Origin: Modicisalibacter luteus DSM 23508
Lineage (GTDB): Bacteria > Pseudomonadota > Gammaproteobacteria > Pseudomonadales > Halomonadaceae
NCBI RefSeq assembly: GCF_000378505.1
Contig: NZ_KB899993.1
Coordinates: forward strand, 124,001-188,000
DNA: 64,000 nt
Direction: 5' to 3'
In this document: one piece after another, positions 55,710 through 64,000 of the stretch
How positions within the stretch are numbered: the first letter of the stretch is position 1
Layout: each line of letters begins with the position of its first letter
Program-made: the position numbers and the translations under genes
The notes under the pieces: model-generated
Told to the model about the DNA's origin: nothing
What the model saw: the letters and a program-made list of their open reading frames with translations, nothing else
The model's database searches: none

Positions 55710-57971
55710 TTAACCCAGCAGAGACAGTACGGACTGCGGCACCTGGTTGGCCTGGGTAAGAGTGGACGTGGAGGCTTGCTGCAATATTTGTGCCTTGGTC
55801 ATGTTGGAAATCTCCATGGCGTAATCGGTATCAAGGATACGTGAGTGTGCTGCGGTCAGATTGGTGCTGGTGGTTGCTAAGTTTTCGATGGCTGAGTCCA
55901 AGCGGCTTTCCATGGTTCCCAAGTAGCTGCGTTTTTCATCGATGCGTGCAATCGCGCGATCTAGCGTAGCCAACGGATCGCTAGGCTGCTTGATGCGGAT
56001 CTTGTCACTCTCGGCCGTTATATTGATAACCGTTCGTTTCTCGCCAGAGCCCGCTTGCAGCAAGTCCGCATCCGTACTCGCCCAGAAATCGAAATCAAAG
56101 TAGACGAATACCTTGCTCGCGCCTTCGGAGGTCTGCACAAGGGTATTGCCGGTTTTGAGATTATCGGTCAACGTCGCTTTCAGAAAACTCTCGGTGTCGG
56201 CGTCAAGATCGTTGGAAAGCCGAAAGTAGTACCGACCGTCCGTGTCTTGACGGAGGACATCGCTATATGTCGTGGTTACGCCATTTTCATTCTGAGCGGT
56301 GTAGTTAACCTCCACGTTCGCTTCATCTAACTTGACAACCGAAGAACCATTTATTTTTTCAATCGTTTCGAAGCGCCCCGGGTCGGGAGAAGTGAAATCT
56401 ACAGACGCCGTGCTGGTGCTGGTGTCCGTTGCGGTGAGGGAAAGCGACGCATGATAATATTCGTAGCCCGCACCATCATTGGTTTCAACGTAATAGCCGC
56501 TGTCATGAAACACATCATTCAATAGCCTCGCATTGGAGAAATCGGTCCCAGCGTTTGTATAATTGAGCGCAGAACTATCGAAATCAAACTTGTTCACGGA
56601 GCTTGGTGAAGAAAAAGACGCTTGCGTCAACCCCTCGCTCTCTATGGCTTGCATAGAAAGGTTGTGCCATCTGTCGAGCTAAGCGCCGCTTCGAAGTACT
56701 GTGTTGTCCCACCGTCTGTATGTTGAATGTAATAATCACCGTTATAAGAGACTAATGACTGCGTGCCACTGCGGAATGCTGTGCCGGGAGAGTCGGTAAA
56801 GTTGGCACTGCTATAGGTATCATAAGTGCTAGATGTAGGTGTCCCATTTACATTAACGGTAATCGTATCCTCTGGCTGCACCGCAAGGAATATCGCGTGG
56901 GTATAGACCGTACTGTCTTTCGCCTTGGTGAGAGATGAGTTGGTCCCGTTACTTGTCACGGCGACCTCTGCTTCTCGATACACAGTGAAGCCTTCTTCTT
57001 GGCTTTTAATGTAATACAAACCATCGGCGCTCACCAACTCAGGCGACGCCCCCGGTGCAAAAGAGGTACCATCACTTAGTTGAAAGCTTTGCTGTGAGCT
57101 GGTGGGGAGCGCGATCGTACTTGTCTCAGAAAATACCGGGCTATTAGCGCTCAGGGTCACATCGTTATGATTCGTCTCAGTATAAAGCGTTGCAGACTCA
57201 GTACTGTAATAGTAATACTGTAGCTTACCGCTGCTATCCTGTGTCTGGATATACCGTCCCGCAAAAGTGTCTGACCGACTACCATCCGCACCGAGTCCAC
57301 GGACATATTCCGTCGTGGCGTTATCTTGTAACGCGCCATTGACGTACATCGACAATTTCGTGGTGACCTCGGCGCCTTCACTTGGCTTCAGCACAATGTC
57401 ATGGGCCCTGCCCCGTAGGGTATCGCGGGGTGTGATCTCGCCTTCGATCCCATAGATGGTAAAGTCCTCCAGTCCTAATGCCGTAGAGCTGAAACTCGTC
57501 TTGCCCAAGTCGACCGCCAGTTGTTGGCCATCTTGCGTGCCAACTTGGAGGTTCATTTTGCCAGCCCCCCATCCAAGAGTGACATGCCATTGAATTCTGT
57601 CTGCTCAGCGAGCCGATCGATTTCCTGGAGGTTTTGATTGATCTCCGCCGGTATTGCATCGGCATCATCAGCAGTAATCGTACCGTTCAATCCCTGTACG
57701 GATAGCTCACGTACACGCTGCAGGCGATCATTGATCTGATCCAGCGCCCCTTCTGCCGTTTGTACCAGAGAAATGCCATCATTGGCATTGCGAGCGGCCT
57801 GGTGCTGGCCTCTGATCTGAGCGGTCATGCGATTGCCGCAGCATCATCTTGCGCACTGTTGACTCGCAGACCGGACGATAGGCGCTCCATAGCAATGCTC
57901 AGGTTGCTTTGCGTATGGCTCTGACGTTGGCGTGAGGTCAGCGCCAGCAGGTTGCTATTGATTACAGTCAA
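55710..57971 (-). pseudogene. fliC: Flagellin gene broken by frameshifts
   Basis: The conserved flagellin N-terminus ([38 protein letters not shown]) and C-terminus (AAHSRILDTDYAMEISNMTK) are present, but in different frames. Four segments result: 57971-57825 (starting at TTG, where ATG seems to have become ATTG), 57828-57553, 57556-56642 and 56654-55710. Each junction is explained by one missing base. The first two junctions read ATGA, stop overlapping restart. The gene would encode about 750 residues with a long variable middle of related YY-containing modules. Its sigma-28 promoter is intact. Sequencing error or a real null allele cannot be told apart here, though no essential gene in the window shows such errors. 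Confidence 0.8.
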
Positions 57972-58004
57972 TGTCGTATCTCGGTCTGAGTCAGCTCTGT
58001 ACGG

Positions 58005-58031
58005 CTATCGGCATAGCCGGAGAAAACTTTA
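58005..58031 (-). promoter_or_regulatory. Sigma-28 (FliA) promoter of fliC
   Basis: On the reverse strand, TAAA (58031-58028) followed by GTTT as in the extended consensus, 15 bases in all, then GCCGATAG (58012-58005). The predicted start is about 27 bases before the TTG at 57971. The region 57972-58278 between fliC and the APS kinase remnant otherwise holds only a weak TATAGT box near 58210. Confidence 0.88.
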
Positions 58032-58278
58032 GCCTGCTTAGGGTGGGAAAAGACGAGCGTGAGCAGCTTGCTAGATGGCATCTGTCTAGGAAACGAAGTG
58101 AGCCCGGTTTGCGCTGGCCTAGAATGCAGAAATGCTTATCGATGTCAGTTTGATAAAGAGCGCAGTTTATCCCGTGCTTTTCATAACCTTGGGTCCTATT
58201 ACATCCGCTATAGTCATGCCATGTACAAGTAGTCCAGTTTGCACTGGCGCTTCCGGAGTCGTTTGGATGGGAAGGGGG

Positions 58279-58909
58279 ATGAAATACCAAGTCAGTGCAC
58301 CTGCTTCGCCCTATGAATATTATAGCCGCAAGGCCGAGGTGGTCTGGAACCACTTCAGCGTCACGCCAGCCATGCGGGCCGAGATCAAAGGTCACAAGGG
58401 CAAGTGCATTTGGTTCACGGGATTGTCAGGCTCGGGAAAATCGACACTGGCCAACGCCTTGGAGATCGAGCTGCATAATCGTGGCTACCATACGATGCTG
58501 CTGGACGGAGATAATGTCCGCCACGGCCTATGCAAGGATCTCGGCATGAGAGAGCGACCGAGTTGAGAACATCCGCCTGATTGGCGAGGTCGCCAAGCTA
58601 TTCGCCGAGGCGGGGATCATCGTGATTACAGCTTTTATCTCTCCGTATCGTCATGATCGGGATAATGCGCGACAGCTCTTCGCTGCAGAAGACTTCATTG
58701 AGATTTACGTTGATACACCGCTGGCCACCTGTGAGCGACGCGACCCGAAGGGGTTATACGCGAAGGCGCGGGCCGGAGTGATTAGTGACTTCACTGGTAT
58801 CGATAGCCCCTACGAGGCGCCGGAATGTCCTGAGTTTCATGTCAACACCGCGGAGCATGGGCAAGAGGCGATCATGCAAAGACTGTTGAGTGGGCTTACC
58901 CTGACCTGA
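58279..58909 (+). pseudogene. cysC: Adenylylsulfate (APS) kinase, frameshifted
   Basis: APS kinase makes PAPS, the sulfate donor of sulfotransferases. The N-terminal part (58279-58566) has [17 protein letters not shown] and [16 protein letters not shown]. The rest ([37 protein letters not shown]) continues in another frame after about 58555, where GAGCGACCGAG should read through as a Glu-x-Asp-Arg type segment. ATG 58279 has a strong AAGGGGG RBS. It is standalone rather than fused to CysN. It borders the broken fliC and a sulfotransferase-containing gene lies 3 kb away. Confidence 0.85.
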
Positions 58910-59304
58910 CCTGGACGCGGCTCTGTTAACGGCGTGTCGAAATTAGCGATGGAATTTGGTTCCTTATCGAAAGAGTAAGCCTGGCAGGGATACGCGATGA
59001 TCTGCTCCGATGCCATCAGAACGGGGCAGGGTAGTGGTGTGAGAGTGCTTGGGCGGAGCGGGATATATTAGTCGTGTCTTCCAGCGTACGGTTTGCGACG
59101 TGATGAATTTTGGTAAGCTGACCTATGCCTAGCAACCTTGAGCTGTGAGGGGATGTGCCCAGTCTACGCGCTGTGGGTTTGTACGAGGCGGCATTTGAGA
59201 CGGGGCGTGAAAGCTAACCTTGCAAATTACCCTTCTAATAGTTTGATCATACATCTGACGGTGGACAGCAATGTCGATTTCCGTACGCTAACAGAGGTGC
59301 ATGC
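58910..59304. other. Non-coding stretch with a decayed gene remnant
   Basis: A 395-base interval with no intact gene. Its middle holds the rmlB-like remnant listed separately. The rest shows no clear feature except the AGAGGTG ribosome-binding site just before 59305. Confidence 0.6.
59039..59145 (+). pseudogene. rmlB: Remnant of an RmlB-like dTDP-glucose 4,6-dehydratase N-terminus
   Basis: Reading from GTG 59039 gives MRVL, then after a small shift GGAGYISRVFQR and VMNFGKLTYA, then after one extra base SNLEL. This follows the order of the RmlB N-terminus: a GGAGFIGS nucleotide-binding loop followed by DKLTYAGNLE. Only about 35 codons remain. RmlB makes dTDP-4-keto-6-deoxyglucose, the substrate expected for the aminotransferase encoded next. 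Confidence 0.5.
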
Positions 59305-60414
59305 ATGAGTGATAGGCCTATCTATGTGACTGAGCCGTACCTGCCACCGTTGGAGGAATTCATTCCTTACCTTGAAAAAATATGGGAAAGCAAGCGCTTA
59401 ACTAATAATGGCTCTATGCATCAGCAGTTTGAACAGGCACTGTGCGACTACTTAGGAGTGCCGGAAGTGGCGCTGTTTAATAATGGCACAATGGCATTGT
59501 TAACTGCGTTACAAGCACTGCGCATTACCGGCGAGGTGATCACTACGCCTTATTCATTTGTAGCAACCGGCCATTCGTTGCTGTGGAATGGTATCAAGCC
59601 AGTGTTTGTGGATATCGACCATAAGACCCTGAATATTGACCCGTCCAGAATTGAAGCAGCGATTACACCCAAGACCACTGCAATCATGCCAGTGCACTGC
59701 TACGGGAATCCCTGCGACGTGGAAGCCATTCAGCATATTGCAGATAACTATAACTTAAAAGTAATTTATGACGCCGCCCACACCTTTGGCGTACAAGACA
59801 GCATTGGCAGTATTCTGCGCCACGGTGATCTCAGTGCGATCAGTTTTCATGCCACCAAAGTTTTCAATACATTTGAGGGTGGGGCAATTATCTGTCCTGA
59901 TCTCAAGACCAAACAGCACGTTAACAATCTAAAAAATTTTGGTATTGTCGATGAAGTTACTGTAGTAGCTCCCGGCATCAATGGAAAGATGAGTGAGGTG
60001 AATGCCGCTTTCGGCTTGCTGCAATTGCAGCATATCGATCGCGCTATTGCCCGCCGGCGCGAAATTGATCAGGTTTATCGTGAGCAGCTTAACGATATGC
60101 TGGGTATTACTTTATTGCAGCAGGCTGGCCAAAAGGTAGCTAACTATGCCTATTTTCCGATACTGGTTGAGCCGGAATATCCGCTTAGCCGCGACGAATT
60201 GTACCAGAAGTTAAAAGATAGAAATATATACGCACGGCGCTACTTTTTTCCACTAATCAGCGAGTTTTCAATGTATCGGGGGATATCGTCGGCGCAATCA
60301 GAGAATTTGCCGGTCGCCACAGCTATCGCTAAGAAGGTATTGTGCTTGCCAATTTATCCGGCATTGTGTGAAAACGATATATCTCATATCGTTGAAATCA
60401 TTCGTGGCAATTGA
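59305..60414 (+). CDS. DegT/DnrJ/EryC1 sugar aminotransferase, VioA-like
   Basis: PLP-dependent nucleotide-sugar aminotransferase of 369 residues. It shows LTNNGSMHQQFEQALCDYLG, TTPYSFVATGHSLLWNGIKP, the aspartate strand VIYDAAHTFGV and the PLP lysine in FHATKVFNTFEGGA. The overall pattern resembles VioA, which aminates dTDP-4-keto-6-deoxyglucose, but substrate cannot be fixed from sequence. The gene is intact with an AGAGGTG RBS. The adjacent acetyltransferase and rmlB remnant fit a dTDP-4-acylamino-4,6-dideoxyglucose route. Confidence 0.85.
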   Translation: MSDRPIYVTEPYLPPLEEFIPYLEKIWESKRLTNNGSMHQQFEQALCDYLGVPEVALFNNGTMALLTALQALRITGEVITTPYSFVATGHSLLWNGIKPVFVDIDHKTLNIDPSRIEAAITPKTTAIMPVHCYGNPCDVEAIQHIADNYNLKVIYDAAHTFGVQDSIGSILRHGDLSAISFHATKVFNTFEGGAIICPDLKTKQHVNNLKNFGIVDEVTVVAPGINGKMSEVNAAFGLLQLQHIDRAIARRREIDQVYREQLNDMLGITLLQQAGQKVANYAYFPILVEPEYPLSRDELYQKLKDRNIYARRYFFPLISEFSMYRGISSAQSENLPVATAIAKKVLCLPIYPALCENDISHIVEIIRGN

Positions 60415-60454
60415 GATGAGTTCATATTTTTAACTCGATTTAGGGGCGCTGGAA

Positions 60455-61159
60455 GTGAATATTTATGGTGTGATAGGATGTGGTGGATTCGGAAGAGAAG
60501 TAATGCCACTGGTCGATAAAATGATAAATGTCAATAATGATAATAAACATGAAGACGAGTATGTATTCGTAGTTGAGGATCATTATGAAATAAAAGCGCA
60601 GTTTATAAATGGCGTGAAAGTAATAAGGCTTTCTGAGTTTTTGTCACTTGATGCCGAGAGAAGGTATTTTAACATTGCCATAGGTGACTCTTATGCTAGA
60701 AAAAGAATTAATGAAAACATACCTTCAAACTTGGCTGAGCCGTTCACGGTGTTTGCAGATAGCTCTGTATTGTTTGCCAATAGTATGATTGGCAATGGTG
60801 CGGTTTTTTGCAACTTCACTCATGTAACTTCAAATGCGGATATAGGAAAATTTTTCCACTGTAATATATACTCTTATGTCGCGCATGATTGCGTAATTGG
60901 TGATTACGTAACATTTGCTCCTGGGGTTATGTGTAATGGGCGTGTGGTAATAGAAGATCATGTTTATATAGGAGCTGGGGCGATTATAAAAGATGGGACA
61001 GAAAAGCCTATTGTTATAGGGAATGGTGCTGTAGTTGGGATGGGGGCCGTGGTTACTAAAAGTGTTCTACCAGGAGCTACAGTTATTGGTAACCCGGCAA
61101 AACCCATTAATAGAAGAAATGCATACATAGAGAATGGTCATAAAGGTATAAAAATTTAA
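60455..61159 (+). CDS. NeuD/VioB-family sugar O/N-acyltransferase
   Basis: A 234-residue acetyltransferase. A Rossmann-like N-terminal domain (YGVIGCGGFGREVMPLVDKM) precedes a left-handed beta-helix of hexapeptide repeats (IGNGAVFCNFTHVTSNADIG, VAHDCVIGDYVTFAPGVMCN, IGNGAVVGMGAVVTKSVLPG). The histidine in VAHDC is the likely catalytic base. It starts at GTG 60455 with AGGGG upstream. Codon use is markedly AT-rich compared with the housekeeping genes, a sign of transfer. It likely N-acylates the sugar made by the preceding enzyme. Confidence 0.85.
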   Translation: MNIYGVIGCGGFGREVMPLVDKMINVNNDNKHEDEYVFVVEDHYEIKAQFINGVKVIRLSEFLSLDAERRYFNIAIGDSYARKRINENIPSNLAEPFTVFADSSVLFANSMIGNGAVFCNFTHVTSNADIGKFFHCNIYSYVAHDCVIGDYVTFAPGVMCNGRVVIEDHVYIGAGAIIKDGTEKPIVIGNGAVVGMGAVVTKSVLPGATVIGNPAKPINRRNAYIENGHKGIKI

Positions 61160-61549
61160 GGATAGCGATCCATGGTTTCATTTCAAGCGGCTAATTCATG
61201 TGCTCGGTGCTACACATCAGTGACGATATGGATGTTCTTCGTTGTAGTACCGGATCCAGCTGCTTATGATTGCTCAGGCTTGGCCCAGTGACCCGAACCG
61301 ATGCAGCCAGATGCGCTCCTCTTTCAGCAAAAGGAAGAGGAGCGTTCCACGAGCCGCTATCGGATCTCAGTCCCATAGGTTGATGAACCCGGCCCAAGGC
61401 GCAAATCGGTGTACAGTGAAATGATCCCCTCAGAGCTATAGTGTAGTCATCAGGAGGGGGCAGAGCGCAAAGAGCTGAGGTAATAAGCCATAACAACAAC
61501 GGACAGGCACCTTCACCCTGTCCGTTTAGTATATTGTTGCTTTACATTT
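61160..61549. other. Non-coding stretch with transposase scrap
   Basis: A 390-base gap between the convergent acetyltransferase and glycosyltransferase genes. It contains the transposase remnant given separately. No intact gene and no clear terminator were found, apart from short A/T-rich stretches near 61530. Confidence 0.5.
61217..61333 (-). mobile_element. IS3-type transposase C-terminal remnant
   Basis: On the reverse strand one frame reads LLKEERIWLHRFGSLGQA, a stop, then AIISSWIRYYNEEHPYRH and a stop. The KEERIWL and WIRYYNEE(R/H)P elements are characteristic of the C-terminal integrase region of IS3-family transposases. Only about 39 codons remain with one internal stop, so it is inactive. 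It marks a past insertion in the island. Confidence 0.5.
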
Positions 61550-64000
61550 TCAAGACTTGTTCAGCCAAGGAAAATTTTTAATTCTCGTGCTGCTTATTCC
61601 TAAAAATTCCAGAAGACGAGGAAGGTCTTCATCTTTTGAAATGTTTATTACTATGAAGTTGTCCCTACCTTCAAAGTATTTGATAACCTCGCTGTTATAG
61701 TTGTCATAATGTCTCTTTAATATGCTCTTGTTATATAAATCATTGTCGTTTATGCCGCAGATCTTCAAGCTCTTGTATAAAAAATCCTTGCTTATGTATC
61801 CAGAGTTTTGGAGGTCAAGCTTAGTTGGTGCATGTGCTCCACTACTGAATTTCTTAATATGGAAGTTTAGCAAAGATTGGTACCATTGTTCAGAGTTATC
61901 CCTGATAGTTAAGATAAATTTACTGCCAGGAAATGCTTTATCTACATGCTTGTATGTTTCCGGTAAGCTAAATGGAACATCTTGGAAAAACTGAGCGTTT
62001 TCGCAATATTTAATAATGCGATGAAAGTATCCATCAAAATAGTCAGTATCTGCCAAGCGCTCAGCTTCACGTTGATCACCTACTACATAGCCAAGCTCAA
62101 AGAAAAGGTGCTGTAGAGATGTTGTGCCGGTTTTGTTACGACCTATACAGAATATCTTATTTTTTTCACGTGGGGAATGTGCCTGATTTATTTTATTTAG
62201 GCTAGATGTTTTTTTCCAAAAATCTATAAAGTCAAAATACTGAACATTGTCAATAGCATTTAATGGTGAAATGCGAACCATTTTGTTTCCCTTGTGCCAT
62301 CCTAGCTCACGTATCATTCGACAGAATGTTCTAATTCCTTCTTGGTTTCCATACTGCCTAGAGGTGTGGCTGGACTGTTCAGCGGAAATCCTAAAACTCG
62401 ACAGGTTTTCCTTTAGCATAACTAGATTTCCACTGCGTAGAATATTCATCCACGCTGCTAAATCAGCACGTCCATATATATCTTCCCCCCCTAGTAAAAA
62501 AAGATTTCTTCCATAATGCTCAACTAGGCTTTTGCGGAACATAACGCACGTAGGCTCGCCAATAAAATTAATTAAGCCATGCGCATATAATGACACTAGG
62601 TCTTCACCATTGATGTAAGTGTCTTTATCAAATGGGAACTGATATGCAATAGGCTTAGATTGCATAAGAGCTCCCTTTTCATCAATAATATTCCGCTGAG
62701 AGCTTGCTAGTGCTGTATTCGGAGTATTATAAAATACGCTTACTAGATTCTTGACGGAGTTAATTGACAAAGTATCATCGTCATAGAGTGGTTTAATAAA
62801 TTTGCCGCGCGACTCTCTTATGCATCGAGTGATGTTTTCTATCTCGCCTAAAGGTTTTTCATTCCTAAAATATCTAAGTGGCACTCTTGATGTAGAGAGG
62901 TAACGCATAACAATCTCTCTAATACCATCTGTAGGGCAGTCATCACAGACGACCACTTCAAAAGATGAATAATCTTGAGAAAGTGCGCTTAGTAAGGCCT
63001 CTTCAAACCAGCGAGGCTTAAACGCTGGAATGACAATGGAAACCTCAATATCAGGTTCACTCGATCTTTTCTCTATAGAGTCATAGCCTCGTGTCGCATT
63101 TTTACCATTAGGGAGACTTAATCTTTTATCTCTTAAATCAATGCCATAGTCTTTTGAGATCTTCTTTAGCTTGTTTAATGAAGCTAGCTGGTCGAATCCA
63201 GTAAAAAAGCGCTCCTGTAGAAGCAAACGATCTTGGCGATTCGCTTTACCGACAAAGTCTTTCTCTGGGTCAACCTCAATCAGTGTGGCCTCTGGGCTAT
63301 AAATGTGTTCGCCATTGGCCCGCGCTAGGATTGTCAATTCATCATCCGCTGCATGTGACTGGTAACCTGAATAGAACAAGCTTCCATTGTACAACTTGAT
63401 TATCCAATCCCTCCTCACCATTCCAAAGGATGCTATGAGCCCATTCCATTTCCCATCATTAAATGCCAAGAGTCCCTTGCCGCTTTTTTCTAGCGTCTGA
63501 TACGCATATCGAAGCCAGTTGCGTCCTGGAAAAGCATCTTCAGCAAGATATACAATATATTTTGTTTCGATATACTTAAATGCGTCATTGATCGTCTTGA
63601 TAAAGCCTTGGCGAACAGTGTCATGTAAAAGTATGATATTGCAATCAGTTCCTGCCCGCTTTTTAAGGATACGGGCCGTTGCCAGACCTTTCTCGGTGTC
63701 AATGGTCGGCATCAATACAACAATGTCAGTTGGATCTTGTAATATGAAACTAGGCAAGTCTCGAACATCAACCATGACGGCATATTCTGAAATATGCTGA
63801 TTGGGTACTGCAATCGACGGTGGGGTAATCGCGGTCTTTGTAAGCAGAGTGGCAAAGTGGTCCCTGCTGCTCAAATTGCCTTTATATGTTGCTTCCTCTC
63901 CCGCTAAGTACTGATCGGCTCTTGTCTCATCCATTTGTGAGAGCAGTTCATATGTTAGGTCTTTCACGCCATACATGGTACGCAGAACAAACGCTAGCTT
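61550..64000 (-). CDS. Glycosyltransferase-glycosyltransferase-sulfotransferase fusion, cut by window end
   Basis: At least 808 residues counted from ATG 63976, but the frame stays open to the window edge with coding-like residues (KLAFVLRT), so the gene probably begins outside. The N-terminal module (about 70-270) looks GT-A-like (IVVLMPTIDTEKG, ADDELTILARANG). The middle (310-560) is a clear GT2 domain with VSIVIPAFKPRWFEEALLSA, VVCDDCPTDG and YDDD as DxD. The C-terminal module (607-808) is a sulfotransferase with the phosphosulfate loop RNKTGTTS (613-620) and 3'-phosphate residues R692 and S701. AT-rich. It probably transfers a sugar and sulfates a glycan; flagellin is a possible acceptor by location. 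Confidence 0.78.
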   Translation of the reverse strand, partial: KLAFVLRTMYGVKDLTYELLSQMDETRADQYLAGEEATYKGNLSSRDHFATLLTKTAITPPSIAVPNQHISEYAVMVDVRDLPSFILQDPTDIVVLMPTIDTEKGLATARILKKRAGTDCNIILLHDTVRQGFIKTINDAFKYIETKYIVYLAEDAFPGRNWLRYAYQTLEKSGKGLLAFNDGKWNGLIASFGMVRRDWIIKLYNGSLFYSGYQSHAADDELTILARANGEHIYSPEATLIEVDPEKDFVGKANRQDRLLLQERFFTGFDQLASLNKLKKISKDYGIDLRDKRLSLPNGKNATRGYDSIEKRSSEPDIEVSIVIPAFKPRWFEEALLSALSQDYSSFEVVVCDDCPTDGIREIVMRYLSTSRVPLRYFRNEKPLGEIENITRCIRESRGKFIKPLYDDDTLSINSVKNLVSVFYNTPNTALASSQRNIIDEKGALMQSKPIAYQFPFDKDTYINGEDLVSLYAHGLINFIGEPTCVMFRKSLVEHYGRNLFLLGGEDIYGRADLAAWMNILRSGNLVMLKENLSSFRISAEQSSHTSRQYGNQEGIRTFCRMIRELGWHKGNKMVRISPLNAIDNVQYFDFIDFWKKTSSLNKINQAHSPREKNKIFCIGRNKTGTTSLQHLFFELGYVVGDQREAERLADTDYFDGYFHRIIKYCENAQFFQDVPFSLPETYKHVDKAFPGSKFILTIRDNSEQWYQSLLNFHIKKFSSGAHAPTKLDLQNSGYISKDFLYKSLKICGINDNDLYNKSILKRHYDNYNSEVIKYFEGRDNFIVINISKDEDLPRLLEFLGISSTRIKNFPWLNKS

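Follow-up and report, generated by a model that had tools for sequence, protein, structure and literature searches.

The 64,000-nucleotide stretch of Modicisalibacter luteus DSM 23508 described here (the window; positions 124001-188000 of contig C5 in a 4.53-Mb genome, with the sequence also read beyond the window end) probably holds part of a working flagellin glycosylation island that makes a sulfated glycan and carries an exchangeable C-terminal finishing module. The main protein is a multi-domain glycosyltransferase (GT) encoded on the minus strand by an intact open reading frame (ORF) of 1763 codons (L005:7551-12842, equivalent to window positions 61550-66841), which is cut by the window edge so that only its C-terminal half lies inside (61550..64000; ORF reading, Pfam and solved relatives). 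The true start is probably an ATG 34 codons inside this frame. The domain order is tetratricopeptide repeats (TPR), a SPINDLY-like GT41 domain, a methyltransferase-like domain, two GT2-type domains and a sulfotransferase. Pfam places the repeats at residues about 70-280. Residues 119-691 align with SPINDLY among the solved relatives (E 4.4e-83), with the best GT41 stretch at residues 486-665 (PF13844, E 8.7e-37), as expected for a GT41 of the SPINDLY/OGT type. The two GT2-type domains lie within residues 1010-1262 (63056..63814, minus strand; PF00535, E 3.9e-6 with that piece alone as query) and at residues 1268-1442 (62516..63040, minus strand; PF00535, E 4.7e-24 with the whole protein as query). 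The sulfotransferase domain occupies residues 1562-1762 (61556..62158, minus strand) and matches PF17784 (Sulfotransfer_4) with E 3.7e-15 and 56.8 bits, against a cut-off of 22.8. The original prediction, made from the window alone, had described a fused glycosyltransferase-sulfotransferase; both domains (PF00535, PF17784) are real, although together they form only the C-terminal part of the larger protein. Among solved structures, a profile built from six such tail domains finds the sulfotransferases 9kf1 and 8y9p (E about 1e-6), and G, T, R and S are among the invariant columns of the six aligned domains, which we take to be the motifs that bind 3'-phosphoadenosine 5'-phosphosulfate (PAPS). 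Family profile and motif columns together point to a PAPS-dependent sulfotransferase in the tail of the window protein. The G+C content of the gene is 0.51-0.52 in the core and 0.37-0.43 in the tail domains.

The third, methyltransferase-like domain gave a structure model with a predicted local distance difference test (pLDDT) score of 89.5. Most of the 50 solved chains listed for this model are S-adenosylmethionine-dependent methyltransferases or share their fold, with low TM-scores (0.26-0.35 of the query); the exceptions by name are a putative hemolysin and a nicotianamine synthase. In one relative (L035) a second copy of the domain overlaps a Methyltransf_21 match (E 4.3e-27). Judged by sequence, the domain is related to FkbM methyltransferases.

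The GT stands beside an intact flagellin gene inside a flagellar locus. An intact fliC of 360 amino acids (L005:12939-14021; flagellin by Pfam) is the next gene upstream of the GT, in the same orientation. It lies just past the window, with 96 bp between it and the GT frame, and a fliD-like ORF, identified by reading, follows farther along from fliC at L005:18075. Relatives in the family show the same arrangement. A search with the GT41 domain plus the one after it found matches at E 1e-20 in 120 of the family's 275 genomes. One locus per genome was examined in 94 of these 120, the window included; the other 26, mostly third-domain-only matches, were set aside. In every one of the 94 loci the GT is preceded on its own strand by a flagellin ORF, at a median distance of 164 bp and within 500 bp in 89; in L042 it is a 92-amino-acid piece only. 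Over more than 400 core columns 76 of the loci align, and the remaining 18 (L043, L109-L124, L126) share the methyltransferase-like domain only, with a part other than GT41 in front of it, again behind flagellin. The only front part of those 18 that was scanned, that of L043, is a GT4-type transferase. The methyltransferase-like domain thus seems, on sequence matches, to be the part common to all loci, including those without this GT41. The proposed link of the island to flagellin is borne out by these results, both in the continuation beyond 64 kb, which yielded the whole GT frame, the intact fliC and the fliD-like ORF, and in the suggested search for intact versions beside fliC in relatives.

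Past the core the GT tails vary, and consist of nothing, GT2 domains, methyltransferases, GT56 or sulfotransferases. Iterative profiles found sulfotransferases at 30 of the 94 loci, 16 of them fused to the GT tail and 14 in nearby genes. Twelve of the fused domains pass a Pfam cut-off (Sulfotransfer_1, _2, _3 or _4), that of L050 stays below every cut-off and three were unscanned. Among the unfused proteins, 12 are of a 273-amino-acid type found near tail-less GTs, 11 on the GT strand and one (L107) on the opposite strand; those of L039 and L084 are of other types, on the opposite strand. The 273-amino-acid type has no Pfam match, and a model of the L062 protein (pLDDT 89.8) matched 42 solved chains below E 0.001, all of them sulfotransferases, so that a sulfotransferase fold is predicted for it. 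A gene of about 190 codons adjoins the sulfotransferases of this type and is a hexapeptide acyltransferase in both cases scanned with Pfam (L034, L062); at L062:8274-8852 and similar loci it sits between the tail-less GT and the divergent sulfotransferase gene. The calls in L053, L058, L073 and L084 rest on the purpose-built profiles. These profiles drifted, and the weak matches in L043, L122, L126 and L091 were dropped, by judgement, as other than sulfotransferases. For the 64 negative loci, Pfam scans covered 59 tails and 87 of 108 downstream ORFs (the remaining 21 are mostly long ORFs and the two APS kinases); no sulfotransferase is among the best 25 of 34 and 25 of 82 Pfam families, and one may still be hidden. 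Seven loci (L036, L038, L047, L050, L079, L095, L118) extend less than 2 kb downstream of the GT, where neighbours may be missed. The tails are AT-rich: of 77 loci, 68 have a tail with lower third-position G+C than its own core (Wilcoxon p 1.2e-11). A core tree of 76 rows, made by a quick method and with 46 of 73 inner branches well supported, requires at least 20 changes of the sulfotransferase state. Low third-position G+C and frequent changes of state fit exchangeable end modules acquired horizontally.

Adenosine 5'-phosphosulfate (APS) kinase was found in 12 of the 94 stretches, adjoining the GT or up to 5.5 kb downstream of it (L059). It occurs as single genes, as fusions reading as CysNC (L073 by Pfam, L059 by reading) and as three disrupted copies (the window, L047, L103). 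Open frames run through the kinase in the nine other loci, of which L048, L049 and L051 have no ATG, GTG or TTG start before the P-loop. Ten of the 12 kinase loci are sulfotransferase-positive; of the 82 loci that lack a kinase, 20 are (Fisher p 1.3e-4, or 4.5e-4 without L059). Intact sets of fliC, GT and APS kinase together with a sulfotransferase occur, for example, at L032, L051 and L052. On permutation within genus, 0 of 20000 trials reach the observed overlap, and in genus g11 (29 loci) the three sulfotransferase loci are the same as the three kinase loci; the Fisher test and the permutation correct for descent only in part. In L059 (1926-5627) the kinase belongs to a group of genes, close to those for flagellin glycosylation, that read as cysD, cysNC and cysQ-like, the names coming from reading and from the APS kinase match. 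The sulfation theme that the original prediction saw in the island is well upheld by genomics (sulfotransferases at 30 of 94 loci, APS kinase at 12, both at 10), with a sulfated flagellin glycan as the predicted product.

Predicted sugar genes lie next to the GT in the window, on the plus strand. The two intact ones, a DesI/VioA-like nucleotide-sugar aminotransferase (59305..60414; DegT family, PF01041, E 6.3e-103) and a NeuD/PglD/VioB-like sugar acetyltransferase convergent with the GT (60455..61159), are as first described. The nearest curated family of the aminotransferase is TIGR04427 (DesI), below its cut-off, and its best solved relative is 2po3. The acetyltransferase matches the NeuD/PglB/VioB subfamily TIGR03570 barely above the cut-off (161.4 bits, cut-off 160.8), with solved relatives 4m9c and 7txp (VioB). 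Genes for VioA-like proteins 69-74% identical to that of the window occur in L039, L080, L081, L082 and L120, at up to about 5 kb from the GT and, as in the window, on the strand opposite to it; the GT of L120 shares the third domain only. In L080, L082 and L120 an RmlA-like gene follows, and L082 also has an RmlB-like gene (by reading of N-termini). Together with a scrap of rmlB in the window, the sequences thus place predicted genes of sugar biosynthesis and modification near the GT. At L039:4560-7137 the neighbours of the GT are the VioA-like gene (74% identical to that of the window) and genes for a Sulfotransfer_3 protein and a methyltransferase. The tail of this GT matches GT56 (E 4e-15), a family which presumably transfers dTDP-4-acetamido sugars.

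Three further genes of the window are decayed. The broken APS kinase gene (cysC; 58342..58909, plus strand) was correctly recognized: PF01583 matches both its N-terminal half (E 1.4e-19) and its C-terminal half (E 8.5e-43), and a single frame change near codon 77 of its relative leaves it readable in two frames instead of one complete ORF. The rmlB-like scrap is likewise real but small, and consists of two colinear pieces in different frames (about 59052..59278, plus strand; tblastn with the RmlB of L084, E 3.9e-5 and 0.046). In the 440 bases searched with that probe the best score was 26.9, higher than in any of 60 codon shuffles (at most 21.6). With the RmlB of the genome itself as probe no match appeared in this region, unlike with the RmlB of relatives. 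The third is a flagellin gene of about 750 codons with three frame changes (55710..57971, minus strand). A 752-codon flagellin ORF of L051, cut by the contig end, matches window positions 55716-57971 in four tblastn pieces covering residues 1-750 in frames -3, -2, -1 and -3. The flagellin in the window is thus broken as claimed, but it is this second, long flagellin, and fliC itself is not lost. The gene order in L051 is fliC, GT, APS kinase and long flagellin; by their likeness to this set the broken cysC and the broken long flagellin seem to be left over from a similar one, although the cysC of the window is on the other strand. In several species such flagellins of about 750 amino acids, to which the broken copy of the window is related, lie downstream of the GT in addition to a normal flagellin (L051:6134-8389, L060, L064, L110 and L112). 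On contig C6 the genome holds intact copies of RmlB (517 bits), RmlA (511 bits) and an APS kinase, the last in an open frame of 708 codons whose size suggests a CysNC fusion, so that the supply of PAPS and of dTDP-sugar is not lost. Loss of the whole system, as first suggested, was rejected: fliC, vioA, neuD and the gene for the GT-sulfotransferase are all intact, and it is the accessory copies (second flagellin, cysC, rmlB) that decay.

From genomics we infer the catalytic steps, the identity of the sugar, and sulfation with its target, as follows. The TPR arm would bind cytoplasmic flagellin, by analogy with FlmG, and the SPINDLY-like GT41 would add the first sugar to Ser/Thr. The GT2-type tail domains would extend the chain, plausibly with 4-acetamido-4,6-dideoxyhexose, made from dTDP-4-keto-6-deoxyglucose (RmlA and RmlB elsewhere in the genome) by the local VioA-like and NeuD-like enzymes. 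The C-terminal domain would move sulfate from PAPS onto the glycan before export, the PAPS having come once from the neighbouring cysC and, after its break, from the APS kinase encoded elsewhere in the genome. In the family as a whole, the core linked to flagellin would be kept while the tail (extra glycosyltransferases, methyltransferase, sulfotransferase or none) is swapped. A bolder version, offered tentatively and given somewhat less than even chances, is an assembly line in a single polypeptide, in which the fixed TPR-GT41-methyltransferase-like core binds and primes flagellin and a horizontally acquired C-terminal cassette extends and sulfates the glycan in cis, giving strain-specific, strongly acidic flagella as a bacterial counterpart of the sulfated haloarchaeal archaellins.

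Several observations weigh against a sulfating island of this kind. The cysC of the window is broken, and cysC, vioA and neuD all lie on the strand opposite to the GT, which leaves co-regulation unsupported. The GT looks split in L103 and cut short in L101, L102 and L107, and the methyltransferase-like domain may be degenerate. With the three disrupted kinases counted as absent the Fisher p rises to 4.2e-3. Tree-based independent pairs number 4.0 in agreement against 0.2 opposite (median p 0.125, not significant), the kinase state changing only 6 times on the tree, too few changes to decide. L048 and L049 carry an APS kinase with no sulfotransferase found, in 20 of the 30 sulfotransferase loci the fetched stretch contains no APS kinase, and in L059 the kinase domain stands 5.5 kb away from the GT, within a larger set. 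The broken cysC, the two kinase loci without a sulfotransferase, the 20 loci without a local kinase and the tree-based result also favour an ordinary, non-sulfated flagellin glycosylation island, in which the sulfotransferase-like domains are inactive or act otherwise and cysC is a stray copy from sulfate assimilation. This is unlikely: the same place is occupied by sulfotransferases from four Pfam families and from one unlisted type, the motif columns are kept, and kinase and sulfotransferase co-occur. The chance that the sulfotransferase module acts on the flagellin protein itself (tyrosine or serine) rather than on sugar is put at about one in eight. An O-antigen or capsule locus adjoining flagellin by chance is highly improbable: VioA, NeuD and Rml genes are typical of surface-polysaccharide loci too, but a flagellin ORF precedes the GT on its strand in all 94 loci and fliD lies near fliC here. 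This synteny largely contradicts such a context, which was rejected, no search aimed at polymerase or flippase genes having been made.

The closest relatives of the proposed sulfating island, as compared by description, are the GT41-methyltransferase flagellin islands of Enterobacteriaceae and the TPR-type FlmG. As described by De Maayer and Cowan 2016 (PMC4875605), the former have GT41 enzymes that carry a SPINDLY-type domain and, in nearly every case, a methyltransferase domain on one polypeptide, and the islands vary in DegT/FdtB aminotransferases, NeuD and FkbM methyltransferases. GT41 and methyltransferase at flagellin are shared with the present loci, and only here were sulfotransferases, APS kinase and extra GT2 domains seen, many of them in one polypeptide; the main text of PMC4875605 holds no word starting with "sulf", "tetratricopeptide" or "TPR". 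Caulobacter FlmG is described as a soluble flagellin O-glycosyltransferase whose N-terminal TPR binds flagellins and whose C-terminal domain transfers the sugar (PMC7591256). It shares the TPR arm, but needs pseudaminic acid and has two domains only, whereas the present family is of GT41 type with a tail of up to about 900 residues. The viosamine island of Pseudomonas syringae has vioA and vioB for a modified viosamine (4-amino-4,6-dideoxyhexose) on flagellin; the abstract on it mentions vioT, fgt1 and fgt2 but no sulfation, and here the sugar genes are convergent to a GT41-sulfotransferase protein (PMC3927599).

The archaellins of the haloarchaeon Halobacterium salinarum bear a sulfated sugar. 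We know of no homology between its sulfation machinery and that of the window, and the likeness is possibly one of convergence. H. salinarum too is a halophile with a sulfated protein glycan, but the system is archaeal and N-linked: its sulfotransferases act on the protein N-glycan and its archaellins are N-glycosylated (PMC11980604, PMC6591318). No report of sulfated bacterial flagellin was found in the titles and abstract beginnings of the literature searched, subscription journals being mostly outside it, and the relevant matches were haloarchaeal (H. salinarum). Within that literature the GT41-type flagellin island is already known and the sulfation modules are the new addition. If true, sulfation would be, by these searches, a chemical modification new to bacterial flagella. 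The repeated occurrence of sulfotransferases at one docking place makes sulfated strains predictable, an enzyme that binds, primes, extends and sulfates in one protein would be a useful tool for sulfated glycoproteins, and tail swapping offers a direct way to probe the origin of flagellar surface diversity.

Beyond the family, a class-wide search matched 49 of 369 genomes at E 1e-60 in the GT41 part only. The two exceptions are the window's own genome and G023, a genome from that family; G023 matches through the methyltransferase-like part. The 273-amino-acid sulfotransferase type occurs in one of 390 genomes drawn from the order (a draw that left out most genomes of the window's own family), and there, in another family, it stands behind fliC and a GT41 protein. 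In a plasmid collection none of 160 matching records covers 80% of the GT query in one place, and the best 15 of the 160 match the TPR-GT41 part only. A contig scan with the whole GT protein gave three partial relatives in distant taxa (L044:6743-12043, L045, L046), namely tail relatives in metagenome-assembled genomes labelled Desulfobacteraceae and Salinivirgaceae and a Sphingomonas locus that matches in separate pieces. These are possibly kin of the source of the tail.

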